64,000 bases of DNA from Thermococcus gammatolerans EJ3 (lineage in GTDB: Archaea; Methanobacteriota_B; Thermococci; Thermococcales; Thermococcaceae), in NCBI RefSeq assembly GCF_000022365.1, contig NC_012804.1, positions 1,860,001 to 1,924,000 on the forward strand. Reading direction: 5' to 3'. Every line of letters begins with the position of its first letter. Positions within the stretch are counted from its first letter, which is position 1. The notes under the pieces were generated by a model. That model was given only the letters and a program-made list of their open reading frames with translations. It was not told the origin of the DNA and did no database searches. Made by a program: the position numbers and the translations under genes. Shown one piece after another: positions 17,295 to 46,342 of the stretch.

Positions 17295-17485
17295 TGCCAG
17301 TTCGAAGGGCTCCCAGACGTCCTTTTTGGCCATTTACAACTTTGTATTGGCCCCTTCAGGAGGAAACCTTGAACAATGAGCACGTGAACGAGAAACCTGC
17401 TTTAGAACTCACAGTTCTCAGAAAAGTGCTCCTTTCTACCAGCACTCATAAGGCCAAAGTTTGTGGTGCGGTGGCCGGGATTTGA
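17295..17485 (+). other. Doubtful small frame with a strong binding site in a 263-base gap
   Basis: Between the phosphorylase stop and tRNA-Gly a frame of 63 codons opens at ATG 17295, after GGAGGCGGTGAA. The predicted product (MPVRRAPRRPFWPF...) is basic and tryptophan-rich, then runs into the antisense of tRNA-Gly and stops inside it. Composition and the tRNA overlap argue against a functional protein; it may be a relic. The rest of the gap holds nothing I recognise apart from the T-run. Confidence 0.2.
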
Positions 17486-17540
17486 ACCCGGGCCAGCGGC
17501 GTGGCAGGCCGCTGTCCTAGCCAGGCTAGACTACCACCGC
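17464..17540 (-). tRNA. tRNA-Gly (GCC)
   Basis: Minus-strand cloverleaf: acceptor GCGGTGG/CCACCGC, anticodon stem GCGGC/GCCGC with loop CTGCCAC (anticodon GCC), T-arm CCGGG-TTCAAAT-CCCGG, discriminator A and encoded CCA. No intron. TATA at 17570-17580. Confidence 0.96.
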
Positions 17541-18135: not shown

Positions 18136-18213
18136 GCCCCGGTGGCCTAGTCTGGATAGGGCGCGAGGCTGCGGACCTCGAGGTCCGGGGTTCAAATCCC
18201 CGCCGGGGCGCCA
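18136..18213 (+). tRNA. tRNA-Arg (GCG)
   Basis: Acceptor GCCCCGG/CCGGGGC, anticodon stem CGAGG/CCTCG around loop CTGCGGA (anticodon GCG), T-arm CGGGG-TTCAAAT-CCCCG, discriminator G and encoded CCA. No intron. A 335-base repeat begins 3 bases after the CCA. Confidence 0.96.
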
Positions 18214-18215
18214 TC

Positions 18216-18550
18216 GAAACTTTGCCTTCGCAAAGTTTCATCAAAGTTGGTAGCTTTTTCTGAAAGGCTAAATTTTGAGTGAATTTTTCTCATTGACTTG
18301 TCATTTTGAGTGTGAGAACTTCTCCAATTGCTCCTTTTTGCAGAGGTTTACTTTTAGAATCGACGCCTGAAGGGCGTCAAGAGAGAGTAAACTCCCCTAA
18401 GAGTGCCATTTGAGTGTGTTCTCATTTAGAAACCACGAGGTTATAAGTAAAATCTATTTCCTTTGAGCCTTTTGGCTAGAGCTACGAGCTTTTGGTGAAG
18501 CTTTTTCCAAAAGCTTCCTTCGCAAGTGCTGGCGGGAGATGATGTGCCTT
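18216..18550 (+). repeat. 335-base dispersed repeat, copy A
   Basis: This stretch is homologous along its whole length to 45931-46265 (copy B). Shared exact blocks include AAAGTTTCATCAAAGTTG, CATTTTGAGTGTGAGAA, CCTGAAGGGCGTCA, CTTTTGGTGAAG and TCCAAAAGCTTCC, in the same order and spacing. It opens with a 10-pair hairpin (GAAACTTTGC-CTTC-GCAAAGTTTC, 18216-18239), has a 6-pair hairpin at 18362-18378 and a 9-pair one at 18487-18515. No reading frame is shared by the two copies. It begins 3 bases after tRNA-Arg(GCG). No terminal inverted repeats or target duplication are visible. It is either a non-autonomous element or a conserved RNA-like sequence. Confidence 0.8.
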
Positions 18551-18895
18551 TCTTGGGCGTATCCTTGTTTCAAGTAGGTTTCCTCTCGATTTGCTCCTTT
18601 AATCATTGTTTCACTCAAAAGCGCCCTTTGGGCGCCAAAAATGAGTTGAAACTACTCAGAAGAACTTCATTTAGCGGTTAAACCATTTCAAAGTTGAACT
18701 TGGTTAATACACAACTGACTTTTTGCCCGTTTGTGAGAAATGGCATTTTCGCAGCCTTTCCCAAAGGCTGTTACAAAGCTTGCTCGCCTGTGCGACGTTG
18801 AGCTTTGCTCGACGCTAGGGACGATGCCCCATCCGAATTCATCAAAAACAAAGGAGGTGATAGAGACGATAGAGGACGCTTCCACACTCCGAAAC
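18551..18895. other. Gene-free structured stretch
   Basis: No credible gene on either strand. Several perfect or near-perfect inverted repeats occur: 18608-18652 (GTTTCACTCA pairing with TGAGTTGAAAC around an inner GCGCCC-TTT-GGGCGC), GCCTTTCCCAAAGGC near 18758-18772, and a GAGC...GCTC pair near 18800. GGAGGTGA at 18852-18860 resembles a binding site but no frame of note follows it. Together with copy A, 740 bases lie between tRNA-Arg and the next gene. Confidence 0.55.
18608..18652. other. Long imperfect hairpin
   Basis: Outer arms GTTTCACTCA (18608-18617) and TGAGTTGAAAC (18642-18652) pair with one bulged T; the inner arms GCGCCC (18621-18626) and GGGCGC (18630-18635) form a perfect 6-pair stem with a TTT loop. 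Could be a terminator-like or RNA structural element. Confidence 0.5.
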
Positions 18896-45808: not shown

Positions 45809-45862
45809 ATCTCGCCCCCACTGTCCTCCCTAACCCCAACGCGCTGAAGGGAGCTTATGGAG

Positions 45863-45875
45863 ACTATTTAAAAGG
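45863..45875 (-). promoter_or_regulatory. Promoter TATA box of the ribosomal superoperon
   Basis: Minus-strand CCTTTTAAATAGT lies 55-67 bases upstream of the SPOUT gene ATG, and is the only strong TATA element in the stretch. It would give a leader of about 30 bases and drive the 31-gene run down to 29471. Confidence 0.65.
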
Positions 45876-45930
45876 CTTTCGAACCTTGCAACCCTTTTTC
45901 GTGATTGGATGTGTGTAATTTTTTTGCAAG

Positions 45931-46265
45931 GAAACTTTTGCTCTGCAAAAGTTTCATCAAAGTTGTAGCTCCTTATTTGAGAGTCAAATTTTGGAAGATT
46001 TTCTTGTTAACTGGCCATTTTGAGTGTGAGAAATCTCCTAGTTGCTTCTTAAGTGGGGTTTAACTTTGGAATCGACACCTGAAGGGCGTCAGAGGAGAAC
46101 AAACCCATTTTTTTGAAGGATTTTGAGAGTGTTCTCCGTTGAAACGCACCATTTTACAACCAAAATCTGCTCTATTTGAGCCTTTGGACGAGAAGCTACC
46201 AACTTTTGGTGAAGTTTTTTCCAAAAGCTTCCCGCGCAAGCGCTGGCGGAAAGTGTTGTGCAGAT
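45931..46265 (+). repeat. 335-base dispersed repeat, copy B
   Basis: Second copy of the element at 18216-18550, in the same orientation. It opens with an 11-pair hairpin (GAAACTTTTGC-TCT-GCAAAAGTTTC, 45931-45955), one pair longer than in copy A: the extra T in one arm is matched by an extra A in the other. The terminal block CTTTTGG...CCAAAAG (46203-46227) pairs over 7 bases. It ends near 46265. It lies about 55 bases upstream of the superoperon TATA box, on the other side from the transcription start. No frame is shared with copy A. Confidence 0.8.
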
Positions 46266-46342
46266 TTTAAGTGTTTATCTCAAAGCCGTTGAGAATTGAG
46301 AGGAGTTCGAGCTTGCGTTTGGTATCGATATAGGACGGACTT

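Follow-up and report, generated by a model that had tools for sequence, protein, structure and literature searches.

Palindromic units behind small-RNA genes in Thermococcus, a probable family of protein-free mobile DNA

The locus

The window, i.e. the whole 64,000-nt stretch of the Thermococcus gammatolerans EJ3 chromosome analysed here, contains two copies (A and B) of a palindromic unit. Copy A lies directly behind a tRNA-Arg gene and opens an array composed of a type I unit (18216-18519), a type II unit (18518-18777), and junction hairpins extending to about 18850. The sequence GGAGGTGATAGAG, starting at about 18853, is common to the array end in the window and to the empty site of an outgroup (L238). 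Copy B adjoins the start of the rpl3 operon. The features are listed below in window coordinates.

17333-17444, minus strand: decayed type II unit closely following tRNA-Gly (32.8 bits with the type II profile; tail sequence)
17464-17540, minus strand: tRNA-Gly(gcc), anchor of the decayed unit (ARAGORN)
18136-18213, plus strand: tRNA-Arg(gcg), anchor of copy A, with genome-encoded CCA at 18211-18213 (ARAGORN; Rfam tRNA, 63.7 bits)
18216-18519, plus strand: copy A, type I palindromic unit, starting 3 nt past the tRNA CCA (nhmmer, 270 bits; self-complementary)
18216-18239, plus strand: 5' hairpin H1 of copy A, 10 bp, loop CTTC (sequence; stem survey)
18362-18378, plus strand: central GC-rich hairpin of copy A, GACGCC-TGAAG-GGCGTC, centre of the palindrome (consensus fold)
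18497-18517, plus strand: 3' hairpin H3 of copy A, GAAGCTTTT-TCC-AAAAGCTTC (consensus fold; fold of copy A)
18518-18777, plus strand: second unit of the array, type II, central hairpin GCGCCCTTTGGGCGC (type II profile, 164.6 bits)
18778-18850, plus strand: junction hairpins closing the array, GCTCGCCTGTGCGACGTTGAGC...GCTCGACG... (sequence; comparison with L238; same junction in other arrays)
45931-46232, plus strand: copy B, type I unit adjoining the rpl3 operon start, with an orthologous site in L062 (BLAST, alignment)
45931-45955, plus strand: 5' hairpin H1 of copy B, 11 bp, loop TCT (sequence; stem survey)
46233-46275, plus strand: beginning of a type II unit, truncated, following copy B, CGCGCAAGCGCTGGCGGAAAGTGTTGTGC (sequence)

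The initial annotation described 18216-18550 and 45931-46265 as diverged copies in the same orientation, which is borne out by an alignment of 74% over 332-339 columns with a genome-scale E of 4.5e-46. The equal length given there needs correction: gaps separate A from B, and 335 nt is no natural unit length. The unit of copy A ends near 18519-18535, and the similarity extends beyond it because the start of a second unit kind follows both copies, this second unit being complete behind A and truncated behind B. The opening hairpins were correctly described, with 10 bp in copy A (GAAACTTTGC/GCAAAGTTTC, 18216-18239) and 11 bp in copy B (GAAACTTTTGC/GCAAAAGTTTC, 45931-45955), and an ORF check likewise found no ORF shared by the two copies. 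Both of the copies counted in the window are real, but BLAST returns 11 matches in the T. gammatolerans chromosome (2,045,438 bases). In a second alignment, copy A pairs with the reverse complement of copy B over about 310 nt, and each copy is thus an imperfect palindrome from end to end. This self-complementarity of the whole element and the tRNA-Arg(gcg) anchor of copy A were both absent from the initial annotation.

Beside copy B, no RNA gene was recognised at 45858-45930. In this region upstream of rpl3, the palindromic units of genomes G000 and G009 differ in kind and orientation from those of G006.

Family extent and architecture

Relatives of copy A were found by BLAST in 58 of 61 Thermococcus genomes, typically at 6-18 places per genome. 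In a family-wide draw, 40 of 61 genomes contained matches to copy A, with none in genus g2 and few elsewhere, and exact matches to the 3'-end motif in a named collection belong to Thermococcus or Thermococcaceae without exception.

Unit length ranges from 250 to 330 bp across the family. Type I was defined by a profile-based search, from which 80 full-length copies in 31 genomes were kept. In the type I unit, a 5' and a 3' hairpin flank a stem with a GC-rich hairpin at its centre, the whole forming one large imperfect palindrome. In the consensus, H1 is followed by the stem ATCAAAGTT.GTAGCTCC / GGAGCTAC.AACTTTTGGTGA, the inner stems GAGAAC/GTTCTC and GGTTTA/TAAACC, the central hairpin GACGCCCGAAGGGCGTC, and finally H3. 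H1 is a perfect stem of 9-12 bp in most of the 80 copies and occurs in four main sequences, its closing pair switching between G-C and C-G.

Type II (GCGCTGGCGGAAG...) often stands next after type I; its 54 distinct full-length copies, collected with a profile, are palindromic as a family. Arrays also hold type III (GGCATGC stem), type IV (GTGATTC stem), for which the count is left out owing to contamination by type I, and type V, a series of GC-rich hairpins (ACGAAAGACAAGGGGGCTCCGCCCCC...). At L057, several units fill a 1.8 kb intergenic stretch between two tRNA genes.

The type V element (ACGAAAGACAAGGGGGCTCCGCCCCC...CCCCACACCCCC, about 120 nt) also starts directly behind tRNA CCA ends, as observed in the tRNA-Gln tail of L022, in L043 (tail of G000:475647), and in the tail of G016:C1:1317206. 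In L072, a type III unit is located inside a type V element. A three-way junction of CGCCTGCGC, GACGTCGAGC...GCTCGACGC, AAGGGAC...GTCCC, and GCAGAGTTTGACC recurs at L070, L072, L075, L022, L137, and window 18778-18850, standing in for the simple H1 where a unit does not adjoin a tRNA.

Placement behind small-RNA genes

Using a search query that contained no tRNA sequence, a tRNA CCA end was located at most 9 nt upstream on the same strand in 57 of the 80 full-length type I copies (31 genomes). In a single case among the 80, a convergent tRNA lies at most 30 nt from the opposite end of the unit. The anchor tRNAs are diverse (Arg, Gln, Val, Leu, Gly, Lys, Ile, and Pro), as is the prefix between CCA and H1, which comprises 1-9 nt (e.g., TAG, TCG, GTTAC, TTCTAAC, or CAC). 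Known small RNAs lie directly upstream of 4 of the 23 remaining copies, namely the H/ACA RNA Pab160 in L053 and L059, and the C/D RNAs sR36 in L088 and sR47 in L066. Most other copies lacking an adjoining RNA are second or later units of an array. No RNA was identified upstream of copy B, its L062 ortholog, the L054/L060 pair, L048, or L097; the unit of L048 is preceded by a hairpin that ends in ACANNN and resembles an H/ACA tail. In L054 (1430-1461) and L060 (1460-1491), a TATA-like sequence, CTTATAAACC, is positioned about 10-20 nt before the tRNA-less unit and could be the promoter of an unlisted small RNA.

In T. gammatolerans itself, BLAST matches and the surroundings of all 44 tRNAs found were inspected. 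About 11 of these tRNAs, i.e. about a quarter, are followed by a unit or a relic.

Conservation of pairing

Units placed exactly behind mature RNA 3' ends might be structured RNA, forming beyond the 3' end of the tRNA or small RNA an extension (a trailer, a terminator, or the RNA of a retro-element) whose folding is selected in the transcript. Compensatory changes at 11 of 50 pairs, and a plus strand that folds better than the minus strand in 71 of 80 type I copies, are consistent with such an RNA. The strand preference, however, is largely gone after composition-matched shuffling, with z-scores of -4.7 and -4.5 on the two strands. The window copies gave z-scores against shuffles of -3.9 on the plus and -5.6 on the minus strand for the DNA fold of copy A, a weaker -2.3 for copy B, and a weak -1.2 for the type II unit (18518-18777) folded alone.

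Covariation by itself does not distinguish structure kept in DNA from structure kept in RNA. The two are separated by the mismatches, which were counted after predicting pairs without G-U so that neither strand was favoured. Type I units contain 3443 Watson-Crick, 149 G-T, and 159 A-C pairs, type II units contain 1622, 42, and 55, respectively, and 16 copies of type III show 36 G-T and 27 A-C mismatches. In the tRNA acceptor stems of the same loci, which served as a control, 739 Watson-Crick and 10 G-T pairs face no A-C pair at all. A selected RNA should resemble the tRNA stems. As G-T and A-C are about equally frequent in the units, the count argues that their pairing is conserved at the level of DNA and not as an RNA gene. 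A G-T to A-C ratio of 452 to 191, obtained when G-U was allowed in pair prediction, reflects folding bias and carries no signal.

The compensatory changes by which the initial annotation saw pairing preserved are real, while the RNA reading attached to them is unsupported, as the mismatches are strand-symmetric. An RNA gene deduced from covariation is rejected on the strand-neutral count together with the tRNA control. Most tRNAs have no unit behind them, so that a unit is not required there, and a scan of the window at Rfam gathering thresholds returned tRNAs only, with nothing but sub-threshold chance matches in permissive scans. Structured RNA is thus regarded as a highly improbable explanation. 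The family provides a case in which compensatory base changes do not mean RNA, distinguished by a simple count of G-T versus A-C.

Turnover between species

The content of homologous sites varies. Behind one tRNA-Arg gene, the units differ between genomes, being truncated in some and missing from others. In the outgroup G073, the gene downstream of this tRNA-Arg is unchanged and the spacer is plain AT-rich sequence, i.e. an empty site. Among six species, Pab160 is followed by type I in two, by type II in two, by a type II-like remnant in T. gammatolerans, and by an empty site in one, all units being placed right after ACANNN. The sister species G016 and G028 differ in their units at many tRNAs. 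At tRNA-Val, an extra stretch of about 310 nt adjoins the CCA in G016, beyond which the older unit and flank are 92% identical to the sister. A search of both sister genomes for a donor of this insert returned nothing near-identical (best match 70%), and some units may therefore arrive from other strains.

The tRNA-Gln arrays form a series, namely [I], [V][I], [IV][V][I], and [IV][V+III][I]. They share a type I unit of 90-98% identity, preceded by 0, 1, 2, or more units (G027, G025, G021, and G010). This series is read as a stacking of new units on the tRNA side; the comparison is unpolarised with respect to insertion and deletion, and read backwards the series could reflect serial loss.

The regular position of the units and their retention in nearly all Thermococcus genomes would suit a DNA structure useful to the host, such as a replication-fork barrier, an insulator, or a decoy shielding tRNA genes from integrases, which was recruited to some small-RNA genes. 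Nevertheless, units accompany no more than about a quarter of the 44 T. gammatolerans tRNAs, sister species differ in content, empty sites exist, and some genera of the family are devoid of matches. Such a host function is considered very unlikely.

The initial annotation had left the choice between a structured RNA and a non-autonomous mobile element. Many copies in varied places, their presence or absence at orthologous sites, and the tract exchange described below speak for the mobile half of that proposal, and its RNA half is not upheld. For an RNA gene, few and syntenic copies with covariation had been expected, and the copies are neither few nor syntenic.

Tract exchange and a proposed route of spread

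For 19 of the 80 type I copies, the best match belongs to another tRNA of the same genome, compared to 5% expected if same-genome pairing were random. Copies of the same genome share long, near-identical tracts, whose limits fall at the central hairpin, within the 5' hairpin, or within the 3' regions of tRNAs. In G009, L062 and L094 (tRNA-Lys and tRNA-Arg) have a tract in common from the 3' part of the tRNA to just past the central hairpin. In G006, L084 and L085 are 99% identical over 437 nt, from the loop of H1 into the unit behind it as far as its central hairpin. L064 and L081 share the right half alone (98.9%), from the central hairpin onward. At the two tRNA-Leu genes L045 and L046 (G000:1834148 and G000:1706698), both tRNA and unit are shared at 96-97% with unrelated outer flanks; this pair is the clearest recent copying event in T. 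gammatolerans. Where a tract measures 150 nt or more and ends inside a unit, the end falls at 0.42-0.59 of unit length in 5 of 5 cases, a small sample chosen post hoc. Considering all matches, 34% of tract ends are no more than 20 nt away from a hairpin tip compared to 18% of random points, a modest enrichment.

On balance, copies A and B are probably members of a genus-wide family of protein-free mobile palindromes that spread by recombination at hairpins and tRNA ends. The palindrome would extrude in the DNA as a hairpin or cruciform, whose tips would be cut, with archaeal Mre11-Rad50 as a candidate nuclease. The break could then be repaired from another array, the homology being provided by the arms, the 5' hairpin, or the common 3' end of another tRNA gene. 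Units or half units would in this way be copied between tRNA loci, and new units would enter on the tRNA side. Homology based on tRNA does not cover entry at H/ACA genes, since H/ACA RNA has no sequence in common with tRNAs, and the first arrival at such a gene may need a separate insertion activity. The H/ACA and C/D sites, which lie outside anchoring by tRNA homology, are not explained by recombination and count against it, as do copy B and a few other units with no RNA recognised upstream.

A broader proposal is put forward tentatively. The arrays may represent a new kind of selfish DNA, i.e. enzyme-less palindromes in ordered arrays behind small-RNA genes, which spread by the repair of hairpin-tip breaks via conserved tRNA 3' ends. 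The role of the transposase would fall to host break repair, and the unexplained shuffling of Thermococcales genomes may draw on the arrays.

Relation to known elements

No earlier description of the family was found in the open-licence literature, where absence is weak evidence. The nearest kind is the hairpin-forming mobile DNA of mitochondria. To our knowledge, these mitochondrial elements are much shorter and lack an anchor at RNA 3' ends. The archaeal units resemble sponge RHE, the double-hairpin elements of Allomyces, and yeast GC clusters in being non-coding intergenic palindromes with patchy distribution, fast turnover, and no known enzyme. Repetitive hairpin-forming elements (RHE) were described in sponge mtDNA (PMC2800124), and the GC clusters are a mobile family of yeast mtDNA (PMC4478555). 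Dispersed, intergenic, non-coding hairpin units with fast turnover, as in RHE, are found here as well; however, the archaeal units are chromosomal, 250-330 bp long, oriented, and organised in ordered arrays.

REP, BIME, and REPIN sequences with their RAYT transposase are likewise dispersed extragenic palindromes without ORFs. We know of no tRNA anchoring of REP elements, and no REP-type unit tagged with GTAG/CGTC was recognised in the archaeal family. REP elements measure 20-40 bp (PMC3733652).

Archaeal MITEs and IS200/IS605 derivatives are also short and non-coding with hairpins near their ends. The units share further MITE features, as their ends are imperfect inverted repeats, the whole unit being one inverted repeat, and as dispersed copies are present or absent among relatives. 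They differ in the anchoring to RNA 3' ends, the palindromic body, and in that neither a parental transposase nor a target duplication was seen. In about 100 loci, no autonomous relative encoding a transposase was seen. Flanking duplications, named in the initial annotation as support for a mobile element, were not apparent by inspection of unit flanks, a comparison made across species. A fixed 4-5 nt target of the IS200/IS605 type is rejected, the prefixes being too variable.

These observations bear on a miniature transposon as the alternative source of mobility. A dedicated enzyme that recognises folded DNA, such as a tyrosine recombinase or a single-strand transposase (HUH/Y1), would insert the palindrome where transcription of small-RNA genes terminates, and tract exchange would be a by-product of homologous recombination. 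The exact position and fixed orientation of the units behind RNAs of three unrelated classes, hairpins at both unit ends, strand-symmetric structure, and one-sided array growth fit this explanation. Conversely, neither an ORF-bearing relative nor a target duplication was seen, the prefix between CCA and H1 varies from 1 to 9 nt, and the exchange of half units would be unexpected. The miniature transposon is therefore rather unlikely, and spread by recombination is preferred.

Integrase elements include a duplicate of the 3' portion of the tRNA. By inspection, no tRNA 3' repeat was found at the distal end of the units, which is either the H3 hairpin or GCGCTGGCGG. The preference for tRNA genes as landing sites is shared with SSV-type integrase elements and with the TRE and Skipper retrotransposons of Dictyostelium. 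TRE3 and Skipper insert about 100 bp downstream of tRNA genes (PMC5006619), whereas the gene-free archaeal units lie 1-9 nt away and use many tRNAs as well as H/ACA and C/D genes. A plasmid or virus as vehicle was rejected, as the plasmid and phage collections contained no match.

Like integron cassette and CRISPR arrays, the arrays are ordered, with a variable end at a fixed anchor. The integron attC site is a folded palindrome. In the archaeal arrays, by contrast, the palindromes themselves are the units, and there are no cassettes or spacers and no link to an integrase or Cas protein.

Genome rearrangement in Thermococcales

The genome paper of T. gammatolerans reported that Thermococcales rearrange very fast despite few insertion sequences or repeats (PMC2718504). 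The family described here is a dispersed, palindromic, and fast-changing repeat that seems to have been missed by such repeat counts, and its arrays are located at tRNA genes, which are proposed inversion sites (PMC5495485). The tRNA-centred inversions concern the same organisms and likewise identify tRNA genes as rearrangement hot spots, and they were attributed to the pTN3 integrase acting on tRNA sequence (PMC5495485). A text search of that paper found neither "palindrom" nor "intergenic". Synteny breakpoints at arrays, analysed by single-linkage clustering, showed no contrast that could be used. Should the recombination model hold, the units would exemplify selfish DNA that spreads with no transposase, and would offer a substrate for rearrangement that can be tested.

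Near tRNA genes, the sister species also differ by two stretches of about 0.7 kb, in the tails of G028:C1:161936 and G016:C1:1194704. These are not palindromic units and appear to bear genes.
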